DNA from: Catenuloplanes indicus
GTDB lineage: Bacteria > Actinomycetota > Actinomycetes > Mycobacteriales > Micromonosporaceae
Assembly: GCF_030813715.1 (NCBI RefSeq)
Contig: NZ_JAUSUZ010000001.1
Coordinates: 2,542,001-2,606,000, forward strand
Length of the DNA stretch: 64,000 nucleotides
Direction of reading: 5' to 3'
In this document: positions 55,321 to 61,299 of the stretch, one piece after another
How the letters are laid out: each line of letters starts with the position of its first letter
Numbering within the stretch: the first letter of the stretch is position 1
Position numbers and translations under genes: made by a program
The notes under the pieces: model-generated
Databases searched by the model: none
Seen by the model: only the letters and a program-made list of their open reading frames with translations
What the model was told of the DNA's origin: nothing

Positions 55321-55943
55321 TCAGAAGACCGTGCCGGCGTCGGCGGGGATTAGTCGGTCGAGGCAGCGTTCGACCAGGGCGGCGACGGTGAGGGTGGGGT
55401 TGCAGGCGGCGCGAGCCGGGGGCTGGCGTACCCGCGACCAGGGTTTGCAGGGTGTCACGGATCGCGGTTCGTGCGGCGGCGTCGGCGGCGGCGGCGGCGG
55501 CTGAAGACGTCGCCGTCCGGCTGCAGCATGACGCCGTCGACCAGCGGCAACCCGCCCACACCGGCGCCGGTGATCACATCCATGCCGTCGCCGCGGACAC
55601 GTTCGAAGAGACCGGCGTACGGGCGGTAGACCACCGGCGGCATGCCGGGGTAGACCGGCGTGGGCGTGAACCAGGACGAGCGGCGGTCGGGCGCGAGGAA
55701 CGGCGGGAACGTGTCACCGCCCGGCAGCACCGGCCAGCGCCGCCCCCGCTCCAGCACCACGCTCCGCACGCCGGCCTCGGCCAGCCGGTACGCCGCGATC
55801 GCGCCGCCGTACCCGGACCCGACGATGACCACCCGGTGGTGTTCCCGCCGCGGGGCGCCCCTTCCCCGCGCGCCGGGCAGGGACGGCAGCATCGCGGCGG
55901 CACCCAGCGCCAGCACGTTCCGGCGGGTCAGTTCCACGGCCAC
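55321..55943 (-). pseudogene. GMC/cholesterol-oxidase-like gene with internal deletion
   Basis: The N-terminal part (from 55943) has a twin-arginine signal (LTRRNVLALGAAAML), a FAD Rossmann motif VVIVGSGYGGAIAAYRLAEAG and VITGAGVGGLPLVDGVML, as in actinobacterial cholesterol oxidases, and continues to a premature stop near 55455. The C-terminal end of the same family (CNPTLTVAALVERCLDRL to the stop at 55321-55323) lies in another frame just downstream. About 1 kb of the middle is missing. The scar contains a GGC/CGG-rich run (around 55480-55500). Confidence 0.7.
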
Positions 55944-56217: not shown

Positions 56218-58965
56218 ATGGACCCGCGGAAGATCCTTGTGGCGCTGGCGGACCTGGCGCCGGCCAGGTCGGAGCTGGTGCTGGACGTGACCCGGGCCGG
56301 GCAGCCGTTCGCGTGGCTGGAGGAACCGGAGCGGGCGCCGGTGGGGCGGGTCGGTGACCGGTTCGCCGGGCTGGACGCGCTGCACCGGGAGGAGCGGGTG
56401 CTGCGACGCGGGCTGGGCTGGGTGCTGGGCAGCGCGGAGATCGGCGGGGTGCGGCGGCGGGTGCGGGTGCCGTTGGTGTCGCAGCCGGTGCGGATGGAGC
56501 GCGGGCTGCGCGGGCGGCTGCTGCCGGCCGGGGATCTGGAGATCACGCCGCTGCTGGCGGACCGCGGGCTGGCGGCGCGGTTCGAGGAGGCGTCGGGGCT
56601 GGGCGGCCCGGGGTGGCTGACCGCGCCCGGCACGAAGGCGTGGATCTCGTCGCTGGCCTGGGCGGCCGAGCTGCCGGTGCGCGACGTGCTGGAGCCGCCG
56701 GTCCGGAAGGCGCCGGCGGAACACCTGGTGGCGTACGCGGTGGCGGCGCTCTACGTGGCCCGCGACGTGGCCTCGACCGGCCCGCGCGACACGCTGCTGA
56801 CCTGGTCCAACCGCACCGGCCTGGAACACACCGCGCTCGACGCCGTCTACCGCGGGACGGACGGCGGCGCGGACCCGCAGGCGGGCGAGGAGACCGGCGA
56901 GCGCGTCCGCTCGCCGCTTCCGCTGAACGCGGCGCAGCGGACGGTGGTCGCGCGCAGCCGCCGGGAGCGGCTGGTGGTGGTGTCCGGGCCGCCGGGCAAC
57001 GGCAAGTCGCACGCGGTCGTCGCGGCCGCGCTGGACACCGTGGACCGCGGCGGCTCGGTGCTGATCGCCACCCAGTCGCGGCACGCGGCCGAGGTGCTCG
57101 GCGGCCTGCTGGACCGCTATCCGGGCCCGGTGCCGGTGCTGTTCGGCGACGCGGAGCGGCGCGAGGAGATCGCCACGAAGCTGACCGCCGGTCTCGGCGA
57201 GGGCGTACCGCGGAGCCGCCTGGCCGAGGACGCGCGCCGCGCCGACGAGGCCGCCGCGACCGTGGCGCGCACCGAGCGGGAGATCACCGCGGCACTGGAC
57301 CGGGAGGCGCTGGCCGAGCGGCTGGAGGAGTGGCTCCCGCTGCTGCCCGCGCTGCGTACCGACGTACCCGCGGTCTTCGCCCCTGATTTTGATCTTGATC
57401 GGGCCCGGCGGCTGCACGGCGAGGCGACCGCGGAGGCGCACGGCTGGTGGCGGGCCTGGCGGCGGCGCCGCGCCGCGGCGCGACTGCGGGCACTGCACGA
57501 GGACCACGACCGCGTGGGTACGGCGTTGCGCGCCGCCGCGAGCGTGCGCGCCGCCGCCGAGCTGGCCGCGTCCGGCGGCACCGACCTGGCCGCGCACTGG
57601 GACGCGCTGGCCCGCGCGGACGACGCGCTCGCGGCCGCGACCGGCACCCGGATGCGCCACGACGCGACCAGCGCGGCCCGCTGGGACGCCGCCGCCCGCC
57701 GGAGCGCGTCCGCGCTGGCCGCCGCGCTGCGGGCCGGACGCGCGCGGCGCCGCGAGGCCCTGGCCGCGCTGGACGCGCAGGCGCTGGTCCGCGCGCTGCC
57801 GCTGTGGGTCGGCACGGTCACCGACGCGGAGGATCTGCTGCCGGCCGTACCGGCGCTGTTCGATCTGGTGATTCTGGACGAGGCCGCGCACATCGACCAG
57901 CTCCGGGCCGCGCCGGTGCTGGCCCGGGCCCGGGCCGCGCTGATCGTCGGCGACCCGCGTCAGCTGCGGTTCGTCTCGTTCGTCGGAGACGCGGACGTGG
58001 CCGTGACGCTGGCCGCGCACGGCCTCGGCGAGTACGCGGACCGCCTGGACCTGCGCCGGATCAGCGCGTTCGACCTGGCCGCCGGCGCCACCGCGGTGAC
58101 CGTGCTGGACGAGCACTACCGGTCCGTGCCGCACCTGATCGAGTTCTCCGCGCGGCGCTTCTACGACGACCGGATCGCGCTGGTCACCCGCCATCCGCGG
58201 ACCGAGGCCACGGACGCTGTCGAGGTGCGCACGGTCACGCCGGAGACCGAGATGGAGGCCGTGGTCGCGGAGGTCCGCGCGCTCGCCGCGGAGACCAGCA
58301 TCGGGGTGATCACGCCGTTCCGCGCGCACGCGGACGCGCTGGAGGCCGCGCTGCTGGCCGCGTTCGGCGTCGACGAGATCGAGGCGATGGGGCTGCGGGT
58401 CGGCACGGTACACGCGTTCCAGGGCGCGGAGGCGGACGTGGTGGTGGCGTCGCTCGGGCTCACCGACGCGGACCCGGCGTCCCGGCACCGGTTCGCCGCG
58501 GACCCGAACCTGTTCAACGTGCTGATCACCCGGGCACGCCGCCGGCTGGTCGTGGTGACCGCGCAGCGGGACGCGTCCGGGCTGATCGGCGACTTCCTCC
58601 GGTACGCCGCGGAGCCGCCCCGCCCGGCCTGCGCACCGCCGGACGCGGCCAAGGGCTGGGCCGCGCGACTGGGCCGCGAACTGGCCGAGTCCGGCGTGCC
58701 GGTCCGGGCCGGCTATCCGGTCGGCCGGTGGAGCGTGGACCTGTGCGCCGGCGAGACCGGCCTGATCTGCCGTGTGCACCCGGACGGCCCGGCCGCGCAC
58801 ATCGAGCGGCAGCGCACGCTGCGGCGCGCGGGCTGGCGGCTGCACGACGCGTTCCCCACCCGCTGGGACGGCGACGCCACCCGCGCCGCCCTGGAGCTGG
58901 CCGGCCCGACCGGCGAGTCAGCCGGTGATGTCCCGCGCCCGAGGCATAGCGACATCCAGGCCTAA
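56218..58965 (+). CDS. SF1 helicase with degenerate C-terminal nuclease domain
   Basis: A 915-residue UPF1-like superfamily 1 helicase. Q-motif/Walker A region SPLPLNAAQRT, then SGPPGNGKSH (about 258-267), motif II LVILDEAAHIDQ, motif III IVGDPRQLRFVSF, motif IV LDEHYRS and motif VI NVLITRARRRL. Residues about 375-540, between motifs Ia and II, are an Ala/Arg-rich helical insertion. The C-terminal 90 residues have the layout of the REase_MTES_1575 (Vsr-like) fold (YPVGRWSVDL and RQRTLRRAGWRL), but the catalytic E-x-D/K is replaced by CRVHPDG, so the nuclease may be inactive. GTG 56185 is an alternative start. Not in an operon. Confidence 0.82.
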   Translation: MDPRKILVALADLAPARSELVLDVTRAGQPFAWLEEPERAPVGRVGDRFAGLDALHREERVLRRGLGWVLGSAEIGGVRRRVRVPLVSQPVRMERGLRGRLLPAGDLEITPLLADRGLAARFEEASGLGGPGWLTAPGTKAWISSLAWAAELPVRDVLEPPVRKAPAEHLVAYAVAALYVARDVASTGPRDTLLTWSNRTGLEHTALDAVYRGTDGGADPQAGEETGERVRSPLPLNAAQRTVVARSRRERLVVVSGPPGNGKSHAVVAAALDTVDRGGSVLIATQSRHAAEVLGGLLDRYPGPVPVLFGDAERREEIATKLTAGLGEGVPRSRLAEDARRADEAAATVARTEREITAALDREALAERLEEWLPLLPALRTDVPAVFAPDFDLDRARRLHGEATAEAHGWWRAWRRRRAAARLRALHEDHDRVGTALRAAASVRAAAELAASGGTDLAAHWDALARADDALAAATGTRMRHDATSAARWDAAARRSASALAAALRAGRARRREALAALDAQALVRALPLWVGTVTDAEDLLPAVPALFDLVILDEAAHIDQLRAAPVLARARAALIVGDPRQLRFVSFVGDADVAVTLAAHGLGEYADRLDLRRISAFDLAAGATAVTVLDEHYRSVPHLIEFSARRFYDDRIALVTRHPRTEATDAVEVRTVTPETEMEAVVAEVRALAAETSIGVITPFRAHADALEAALLAAFGVDEIEAMGLRVGTVHAFQGAEADVVVASLGLTDADPASRHRFAADPNLFNVLITRARRRLVVVTAQRDASGLIGDFLRYAAEPPRPACAPPDAAKGWAARLGRELAESGVPVRAGYPVGRWSVDLCAGETGLICRVHPDGPAAHIERQRTLRRAGWRLHDAFPTRWDGDATRAALELAGPTGESAGDVPRPRHSDIQA

Positions 58966-59032
58966 CGATGACTAAGTCAACCCGGGACGAACCGTCCTAG
59001 ATCTGATAAAGATAGGTCCGGAGGTGGGAACA

Positions 59033-60214
59033 ATGGCGTTCTATCGTTCCGTCGGCGAGGTTCCGCCGAAACGGCACACCCAGCACCGGCGCCCGGACGG
59101 TGGCCTCTACTACGAGGAGCTGATGGGCGAGGAGGGCTTCTCCGCCGACTCGTCACTGCTCTACCACCGCGAGATCCCGACCGCGATCGTGGACGCGTCG
59201 CCGTGGCAGCCACCCGGCCTCGGCACCACCGCGAACCATCCGCTGCTCCCCCGGCACTTCAAGCTGCACGACCTGTTCAAGGACGCGGACGAGGCCGACG
59301 TGGTCACCGGGCGGCGCCTGGTCCTCGGCAACGGCGACGTGCGCATCTCCTACGCGGTGGCCAGCACGCCGTCGCCGCTCTACCGCAACGCAATCGGCGA
59401 CGAGTGCGTCTACGTCGAGTCCGGCAATGCGATCGTGGAGACCGTGTTCGGCACGCTGACCGCGACCGCCGGCGACTACGTGCTCCTGCCGCGCGCCACC
59501 ACGCACCGGTGGGTGCCGCAGAGCCGGGAACCACTGCGTGCGTACGTGATCGAGGCGAACAGCCACATCGCGCCGGCCAAGCGCTACCTCTCCCGGTACG
59601 GCCAGTTCCTCGAGCACGCGCCGTTCTGCGAGCGGGACCTGCACGGACCGGGCGCACCGCTGCTCGCCGACGGCACCGATGTCCCGGTGCTGGTCAAGCA
59701 CCGCGGCGGCGCCGGGGGCGTGACCGGCACCCGCTACGTCTACCCGAGGCACCCGTTCGACGTGGTCGGCTGGGACGGCTGCCTCTACCCGTACACGTTC
59801 AGCGTCCACGACTTCGAGCCGATCACCGGGCGGGTGCACCAGCCGCCGCCGGTGCACCAAGTGTTCGAGGGCGCCGGGTTCGTGATCTGCAACTTCGTGC
59901 CCCGCAAGGTCGACTATCACCCGCTGGCCATCCCGGTGCCGTACTACCACTCCAACGTGGACAGCGACGAGGTCATGTTCTACTGCGGCGGGAACTACGA
60001 GGCGCGCAAGGGCTCGGGCATCGGCCAGGGCTCGATCTCCCTGCACCCGGGTGGCCACCCGCACGGCCCGCAACCCGGCGCCTACGAACGCTCGATCGGC
60101 GTGACCGAGGTCGACGAGCTGGCCGTCATGGTCGACACGTTCCGCCCGCTGGAGCTGGGCGAGGGCGCCACCGCCTGCGAGGACCCGGCCTACCCGTGGA
60201 GCTGGGCCCGGTGA
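59033..60214 (+). CDS. hmgA: Homogentisate 1,2-dioxygenase
   Basis: A 393-residue iron(II) dioxygenase that opens the ring of homogentisate in tyrosine and phenylalanine breakdown. The cupin-like core includes HRWVPQSREPLRAYVIE, SNVDSDEVMFYCGG and SLHPGGHPHGPQPG with the iron-binding His/Glu residues. ATG 59033 has GGAGGT 7 nt upstream. Its stop overlaps the start of the fumarylacetoacetase gene (GTGA). The maleylacetoacetate isomerase step is not encoded nearby. Confidence 0.94.
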   Translation: MAFYRSVGEVPPKRHTQHRRPDGGLYYEELMGEEGFSADSSLLYHREIPTAIVDASPWQPPGLGTTANHPLLPRHFKLHDLFKDADEADVVTGRRLVLGNGDVRISYAVASTPSPLYRNAIGDECVYVESGNAIVETVFGTLTATAGDYVLLPRATTHRWVPQSREPLRAYVIEANSHIAPAKRYLSRYGQFLEHAPFCERDLHGPGAPLLADGTDVPVLVKHRGGAGGVTGTRYVYPRHPFDVVGWDGCLYPYTFSVHDFEPITGRVHQPPPVHQVFEGAGFVICNFVPRKVDYHPLAIPVPYYHSNVDSDEVMFYCGGNYEARKGSGIGQGSISLHPGGHPHGPQPGAYERSIGVTEVDELAVMVDTFRPLELGEGATACEDPAYPWSWAR

Positions 60215-61299
60215 GCCTGGGTGCCGCCGCCTACGGCGTGTTCAGCGTCGGGGACGGGCCACGGCGGCTCGGTGCGCTGGCCGGGGATCGCGTGCTCGAC
60301 CTGTCCGCGGCCGGGATCTTCGCGGCCACCTCGCTCAACCCGCTGCTGGCCGCCGGACCGGCCGTGTGGCGCGAGGTGCACGACCGGCTCGCCGACGTCG
60401 CCCTGGAAGAACACACACACCCCGCCGGCACGGTACGGATGCACCGCCCGTTCGACGTGGCCGACTACGCGGACTTCTACGCGTCCGAGCACCACGCCAC
60501 CAACGTGGGCCGGATCTTCCGCCCGGACGCGCCGCCGCTGCACCCGAACTGGAAACACCTGCCGATCGGCTACCACGGCCGGGCCGGCACGGTCGTGGTG
60601 TCCGGCACGGACATCCGCCGCCCGGCCGGCCCGCTCGGCCCCGGCGAGTTCGGGCCGACGCGCAAGCTCGACTTCGAGGCGGAGGTCGGGTTCGTGGTCG
60701 GCGTGCCGTCCCGCGGGCCGGTGCGCTGCGACGACTTCGCGGCGCACGTGTTCGGCGTCTGCCTGGTCAACGACTGGTCGGCCCGGGACGTGCAGCGCTG
60801 GGAGGCAACGCCGCTCGGCCCGTTCCTCGGCAAGTCGTTCGCCACGTCGATCGGCGCCTGGGTCGTACCGTTGCATGCTCTGGCTCCGGCCCGGACCGCA
60901 GCGCCGCGGCAGGAACCGCTGCCGCTGCCGTATCTCCGGGGTGACCGGCCATGGGCGCTGGACCTGGAGATCGAGATTCGGATCAACGGGTACGTGGTGT
61001 CCCGGCCCCGGTTCGCGGACATGTACTGGACGCCGGACCAGATGCTCGCGCACCTGACCGTGAACGGCGCAACGCTGCGCACCGGCGACCTGTTCGCGTC
61101 CGGCACGATCAGCGGGCCGGCCCGGGACCGGCGCGGCTGCCTGCTGGAACTCTCCTGGGACGGACGTGACCCACTGCCGCTCCCGGACGGCGGCTCGCGC
61201 ACCTACCTGGAGGACGGCGACACGGTCTCGATCTCCGCGACCGGTCCGGCCGGCGTCTCGCTCGGCACCGTCACCGGCACCGTCCGCCCTCACTCCTGA
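60211..61299 (+). CDS. fahA: Fumarylacetoacetase
   Basis: A 362-residue FAH-family hydrolase that splits fumarylacetoacetate, the last step of homogentisate breakdown. Metal-site segments DFEAEVGFVVG, VCLVNDWSARDVQRWE and GKSFATSIGAWVVP are typical. GTG 60211 is coupled to hmgA. The last 10 nt overlap the convergent permease gene. Confidence 0.93.
   Translation: MSLGAAAYGVFSVGDGPRRLGALAGDRVLDLSAAGIFAATSLNPLLAAGPAVWREVHDRLADVALEEHTHPAGTVRMHRPFDVADYADFYASEHHATNVGRIFRPDAPPLHPNWKHLPIGYHGRAGTVVVSGTDIRRPAGPLGPGEFGPTRKLDFEAEVGFVVGVPSRGPVRCDDFAAHVFGVCLVNDWSARDVQRWEATPLGPFLGKSFATSIGAWVVPLHALAPARTAAPRQEPLPLPYLRGDRPWALDLEIEIRINGYVVSRPRFADMYWTPDQMLAHLTVNGATLRTGDLFASGTISGPARDRRGCLLELSWDGRDPLPLPDGGSRTYLEDGDTVSISATGPAGVSLGTVTGTVRPHS

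Follow-up and report, generated by a model that had tools for sequence, protein, structure and literature searches.

The window analysed in the present study is a stretch of 64,000 nucleotides from Catenuloplanes indicus, in which a real open reading frame on the forward strand (56218-58965, +) starts with ATG and encodes a protein of 915 amino acids, an SF1 helicase followed by a C-terminal domain with a predicted Vsr-like nuclease fold. The gene gives a single match within its own 9.25-Mb genome. Downstream on the same strand (59024-61299, +) lie frames resembling homogentisate dioxygenase and fumarylacetoacetase, which were named from their translations alone; the former has a 91% identical match downstream of the helicase gene in Catenuloplanes japonicus as well. 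Upstream, a short frame on the reverse strand (55455-55943, -), which we take to resemble the first ~150 residues of an exported FAD oxidoreductase, stops early; the matching frame of C. japonicus continues to the edge of the stretch that was read, and the frame of the window is possibly a truncated gene.

The closest named match to the protein is that of C. japonicus (L002; 78% identity), a member of the Micromonosporaceae, and same-genus matches in three further genomes show 94, 91, and 86% identity, a fourth (80% by that tool) being the L002 sequence again; the gene occurs in all five sampled genomes of the genus. A match of some kind was detected in 94 of 121 genomes of the family at E 0.001, many of these being other helicases, and relatives were rare elsewhere: at E 1e-30, 6/148 in the class, and at E 1e-40, 5/296 in the phylum, with the genome of C. 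indicus counted in both. Most relatives are full length, and a few are partial or read in two frames (e.g., L020 and L021). In the Micromonospora fulviviridis copy (L020, 6001-8744), the tblastn pieces fall in frames 1 and 3, which reflects a frameshift or a sequencing error.

The helicase motor

Residues 233-800 (56914..58617, +) constitute a helicase core of the UPF1/IGHMBP2 type, based on Pfam matches to AAA_12 (72.5 bits) and AAA_11 (40.6 bits) and on structural matches, and a long helical insert occupies about residues 321-540 within it. Neither DUF4011, nor a kinase, nor a PLD domain was found in the protein by Pfam, with DUF4011 and PLD being searched for up to E 1. Motif I, the Walker A sequence GPPGNGKSH (residues 257-265; 56986..57012, +), carries K263, which is Lys in 61 rows of a 64-row alignment of relatives, some rows having gaps there. 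Motif II, the Walker B sequence DEAA (residues 554-557; 57877..57888, +), is also well kept (D554 in 64/64 and E555 in 63/64), as is motif VI, NVLITRARR (residues 767-775; 58516..58542, +), in which T771, R772, and A773 are each present in 64/64.

Among solved structures, the motor best matched IGHMBP2 (Z 16.7) and UPF1 (Z 16.2), followed by Sen1, the coronavirus helicase NSP13, and spliceosome chains, and when the helicase was compared by sequence with solved structures, IGHMBP2, Sen1, senataxin-like, and UPF1 chains were returned. With motifs I, II, III, V, and VI intact and conserved across the 64 relatives, the protein is a UPF1/IGHMBP2-type SF1 helicase. The full-length structural model is middling (pLDDT 70.8, pTM 0.64), with much of residues 15-112 being poor and the greater part of the helical insert and of the C-terminal domain being good.

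The C-terminal domain and the place of its catalytic residues

The C-terminal domain (residues 813-897; 58654..58908, +) is predicted to adopt a Vsr-like restriction-endonuclease fold of the MTES_1575 type, with a helix at 814-824, strands at 829-835, 838-844, and 847-850, helix B at 858-870, a strand at 874-877, and a C-terminal helix; a model of the domain by itself from AlphaFold reached a pLDDT of 83.4 and a pTM of 0.72. MTES_1575 is described as a novel Vsr-family REase (PMC3710099). The Pfam match of the protein to MTES_1575 is below threshold (18 bits against a cut-off of 38.2, residues 819-890), and the cut-off is also missed by the relatives L022 (17.9 bits) and L101 (29.1 bits). When a profile of 49 relatives was aligned with a profile of 14 MTES_1575 domains, hhalign returned a probability of 98.6, and homology to MTES_1575 was confirmed at this level of sequence profiles. 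For the domain, Foldseek detected nothing below E 0.001, its best value being 0.044, and, since these E-values are weak, the assignment of a Vsr-like fold leans on the MTES_1575 homology. Matches in VIA were led by I-Bth0305I (Z 8.9), NGO0050 (8.2), Vsr (7.9), and the RAP module of FASTKD4 (7.0), although a Z of 7-9 for Vsr-like folds is near the level that the VIA notes call common for unrelated arrangements; two Toxoplasma mitoribosome chains, which are presumably RAP-type, scored 8.6 and 8.5. The Pfam RAP family matches a related helicase, L045 (26.2 bits, cut-off 24.2). A profile of the domain produced no match to solved structures up to E 10, and the hits of a phmmer search of solved structures with the domain, chiefly designed beta-trefoil proteins matching along a short segment, were taken as spurious. 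Another sub-threshold MTES_1575-like stretch (31.8 bits) is present in the same genome (L048, G000:C1:8970022-8970207) and reads I-E-Y-E-G-D-H-H at the place of the strand-3 motif.

Fourteen reference domains were chosen from a strict PF18741 search for having both Asp and Glu, and the set thus leans to canonical sites; the strand-2 Asp, the strand-3 Glu, the x+2 Asp, the Asp and Arg of helix B, and the strand-4 Arg are each present in 14/14, and the helix-1 Glu and strand-1 Gln in 13/14. The relatives L105, L107, L109, L111, and L114 all contain G-V-E-C-x-[VI]-H-[PS]-x-G, and these Glu-bearing sequences fix the alignment such that the catalytic Glu corresponds to Ile850 and the x+2 residue to Arg852; the joint alignment and hhalign likewise place Ile850 at the catalytic Glu. 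A register that pairs His854 with the catalytic Glu (VHPDG against IECDG) was dropped because of the register of the Glu-bearing relatives and the predicted end of strand 3 at 850.

The initial annotation correctly identified the Asp strand SVDL and the RQRTLRRAGW helix as being retained, the metal-site Asp being Asp841 in strand 2 (58738..58740, +; Asp in 63/64 rows and Glu in 1/64). It also placed CRVH where the catalytic E-x-D/K should be; the Glu is indeed absent, whereas the residues at that place are Ile850-Cys851-Arg852 (58765..58773, +), so that CRVH (851-854) begins one residue past the Glu position. The same annotation had proposed an alignment to active family members as a check; in the alignment to the 14 reference domains, Glu and Asp stand opposite Ile850 and Arg852 in all 14. 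As for an active PD-(D/E)XK site, the strand-2 Asp is present (D841) and the strand-3 (D/E)-x-K/D half-motif is absent (I850-C851-R852).

The His of CRVH, His854 (58777..58779, +), follows strand 3 and is itself kept in 62/64 rows, the exceptions being Phe in L100 and L108. In helix B, His861 (58798..58800, +) is His in 64/64 at a position that is Asp in 14/14 reference domains, and at the end of strand 4, Asp877 (58846..58848, +) is Asp or Glu in 58/64 at a position that is Arg in 14/14 reference domains. His861 and the acidic residue at 877 may be an exchanged charge pair whose members face each other, in place of the Asp/Arg of the reference domains. In a 49-row family alignment, Asp841 is conserved in 48/49, His861 and R864 in 49/49, and Asp or Glu at 877 in 48/49, Glu850 is present in 1/49, and the x+2 position is mixed; the helix-1 Glu is gone (position 815 is mostly A/T/V), as is the strand-1 Gln (position 832 is mostly G/D/A/R). 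In the 64 rows, Y833, H861, and W873 are each invariant (64/64) and position 852 is variable. Acids are conserved in the Glu-less Micromonosporaceae clade at 856 (42/47), 877 (46/47), and 886 (46/47), and these are the candidates for an acid that might restore the metal site; D886 and R889, located where the last helix begins, are each kept in 46/47, and their conservation may be structural. Outside the Micromonosporaceae, position 856 is Asp in 5/8 Glu-less and 3/9 Glu-bearing rows, and this comparison provided no evidence that Asp856 is an acid compensating for the lost Glu850 (Fisher p 0.35).

Glu850 among the relatives

Relatives were sought in 296 genomes of the phylum, 138 from a single order, and 66 from a single class, and these wider searches yielded 16 more relatives outside the Micromonosporaceae, the domain being covered in 15. 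The rows that were left out comprised eight loci sharing their last 300 residues with another, L045 (the same gene as L060), L074-L079 (six of 30 PF18741 loci), which have no helicase-core match, L048, L049, and L112, which ends before the C-terminal domain; L020, with an apparent frameshift and its upstream residues out of frame, and L021 and L113, both partial, were kept in the alignment as read. Glu850 is present in nine of the 64 rows (L022, L100, L103, L105, L107, L108, L109, L111, and L114) and absent in 55, and its distribution is uneven: 0/47 in the Micromonosporaceae, in which position 850 is I/N/V/L/T/M/C/F in 47/47, and 9/17 in the other rows. The 47 rows are from genomes of the same family or from loci of named genera, four of which were looked up as Micromonosporaceae; Micromonospora and Verrucosispora rows were assumed to belong there. 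They form one side of a branch with an SH-aLRT of 99. On the helicase-core tree, at least six changes between Glu and non-Glu are required at 850, a count that depends on quick, unrooted tree searches with several long branches. The count itself has no direction; repeated loss appears to be the likelier one because Glu occurs in relatives outside the Micromonosporaceae, and, since nine relatives carry Glu850, the ancestral site probably used it. L100 and L108, in which His854 is missing, have both E850 and E852 and are 95% identical to each other over the helicase-core columns.

Departures from the canonical site extend beyond this family. Of the PF18741 rows that include a helicase core, 24 in all, both Asp and Glu are retained in 14, eight are without the Asp, and two are without the Glu; nine further rows, which were fetched for their likeness to the 915-aa helicase, are all without the Glu. 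Degenerate Vsr-like domains behind SF1 helicases thus seem to be common. In a related helicase clade (L044, L046, L047, and L094-L099), the Glu is absent and the Asp residues of strand 2 and of x+2 are kept. L094-L099 are open frames of 1,208-1,302 aa from the same family, L097 being from a same-genus genome, and they read [VI]-D-D-P after strand 3. The MTES_1575 domains of L064-L070 (six of the seven in one family) have E-T-D with Ala or Thr in place of the strand-2 Asp, a mirror image of the Glu-less case with Asp841.

Possible functions and known systems

The C-terminal domain is under purifying selection, as shown by a dN/dS of 0.13-0.38 in eight pairs of close relatives; these values are from a simple Nei-Gojobori script, with the eight pairs overlapping and the domain contributing 80 codons. 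In the same comparison, the second RecA domain spanned 0.16-0.60, the helical insert 0.18-0.55, and the first RecA domain 0.00-0.24, and the C-terminal domain was more constrained than the second RecA domain and less constrained than the first in seven of the eight pairs each. The mean column entropy of the C-terminal domain, 1.18 bits, is similar to the 1.12 of the second RecA domain, below the 1.64 of the helical insert, and above the values for the first RecA domain (0.97 and 0.81). The initial annotation offered a relic as one interpretation of the domain, and the repeated changes at position 850 and the unlike residues that fill it might be read as the decay of a part without function. 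A relic is not supported for a domain under purifying selection, and the (near-)invariance of Y833, D841, H861, and W873 also argues against decay, which we regard as very improbable.

Our preferred explanation, which we hold to be probable, is that of an active helicase whose Vsr/RAP-like module binds nucleic acid but does not cut it in the canonical, metal-dependent way. The ATP-driven motor of the UPF1/IGHMBP2 type would carry a Vsr-like domain that has lost this cleavage and that would serve beside the motor as a module for binding nucleic acid or guiding a strand, in the manner of the dead nuclease domain of RecC; motor and module may act on one substrate. The module would then bind DNA or RNA and not cut it, and the kinship of the motor suggests repair or single-gene defense as a possible cellular role. 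This reading is supported by the conserved helicase motifs, the clade-wide absence of Glu850, the variable position 852, the missing helix-1 Glu and strand-1 Gln, the low dN/dS of the domain, and the closeness of RNA-binding relatives of the fold, as seen in the FASTKD4 match and the RAP match of L045. There are two precedents: in RecC, an inactivated nuclease domain makes a hoop for single-stranded DNA (PMC1185551), and the RAP/FASTK proteins combine a Vsr-like fold and variable sites with RNA binding, which of their members cut being debated (PMC12687428). The near-invariance of D841, H854, and H861 counts against a binding module because it exceeds what a plain binding surface would need, as do the conserved acids 856, 877, and 886 in the Glu-less clade and the lower constraint on the domain than on the first RecA domain. 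The inactivation of the nuclease site suggested by the initial annotation is only partly borne out: the canonical Glu has been lost clade-wide in the Micromonosporaceae, whereas its absence alone does not imply inactivity because Vsr is also without Glu there, yet cuts.

Continued cutting by the domain, at a rewired, Vsr-like site in which Asp841 acts together with His854, His861, or both (D856 or D877 perhaps contributing) and the canonical Glu is not needed, is possible, if unlikely. The three residues are maintained although position 850 varies, the best fold matches include I-Bth0305I and Vsr, and H854 is missing precisely in L100 and L108, where E850 and E852 both occur. In Vsr, FxH replaces (D/E)XK and a further catalytic His lies elsewhere (PMC551604), and a figure legend in PMC1185551 names D51 and H69 as the catalytic residues of Vsr. 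On the other hand, position 852, the counterpart of the His in FxH, is not conserved, the helix-1 Glu is absent, His861 may just pair with the acidic residue at 877, and, as nine relatives carry Glu850, this Glu was probably used by the ancestral site. We consider it doubtful that the clade arrived at a new Glu-free nuclease site of Asp841-His854-His861, perhaps with the exchanged strand-4 acid, through repeated loss of the Glu once His861 and the strand-4 acid had been exchanged in; if true, helicase-coupled cutting would use Vsr-like histidine chemistry. The proposal that the protein acts as a single-gene effector against phages, similar to Hhe or Mokosh, with a C-terminal domain sensing foreign nucleic acid, concerns its cellular role and is compatible with either mechanism, and the probabilities attached to the readings therefore do not sum to one. 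This role is improbable in our estimation. The best PADLOC matches (MkoC 101 bits, MkoA 92, PDC-S37 49, and Hhe 33) agree with it, as do those of L045, which retains both Asp and Glu and whose C-terminal domain mediates its matches to PDC-S37 (270 bits) and Hhe (132 bits), and the patchy spread in the sampled family, full-length relatives being scattered, for example, within the genus g34. However, the PADLOC matches of the 915-aa protein cover parts of the helicase only, and the absence of DUF4011, kinase, and PLD domains in Pfam speaks against this role; the neighbors look like housekeeping genes (uvrA, homogentisate dioxygenase, and fumarylacetoacetase, named from translations alone), and the occurrence in every sampled genome of the genus also weighs against it. 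In 22 loci with flanks of up to 6 kb, some being shorter, no partner gene was found beyond the Micromonospora relatives, and, under the clustering used, a neighbor family was common to seven loci at most, all from Micromonospora.

A single helicase family with Glu in some members and not in others represents a natural series for the effect of the loss of a catalytic acid; it also calls for caution, as profile searches miss such degenerate domains or would call them nucleases. No paper on this Glu-less helicase family was found in the open-licence literature, among the matches listed.

Among known systems, the domain resembles MTES_1575 (PF18741) in predicted fold, the Asp strand, the helix-B Arg, the L-x-x-x-G-W signature, and its position after an SF1 helicase, and differs from it in lacking the Glu, the x+2 acid, the helix-1 Glu, and the strand-1 Gln, in having His for the helix-B Asp and Asp for the strand-4 Arg, and in scoring under the Pfam cut-off. 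Hhe (NCBIfam NF042953, PADLOC PDLC02194), which we take, partly from its NCBIfam name, to combine DUF4011, a helicase, and a nuclease domain, shares the SF1 helicase core, and its profile appears from the L045 match to run on into an MTES_1575-type domain; the 915-aa protein is approximately half the length of the profiles (1797 and 1911), has no DUF4011, and matches over part of the helicase only (33 bits, residues 521-656). Mokosh comprises a helicase with a PLD-type nuclease, and the protein matches it in the helicase, with PLD being absent by Pfam up to E 1. In Upx (PDB 9wuf), named as an anti-phage system in PMC12629846, chain residues 1123-1272 align with the domain at a modest Z of 5.4 (24% identity, 79 residues). 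Vsr shares the fold (Z 7.9), the strand-2 Asp, and a hydrophobic residue in place of the Glu; its x+2 His and helix-1 Glu are not conserved in the family, in which the domain is fused to a helicase, and, compared with FxH, the hydrophobic residue at 850 fits, 852 is not His, and H854 is a possible second His. The RAP/FASTK proteins, eukaryotic and mitochondrial unlike the present protein, are similar in their Vsr-like fold and variable site and in binding RNA, as the domain may do (PMC12687428). RecC resembles the protein in having a nuclease fold that is fused to helicase domains and has lost its catalytic site; its helicase domains are also dead and no metal ligand remains (PMC1185551), whereas in the 915-aa protein the motor is intact and Asp841 is kept.
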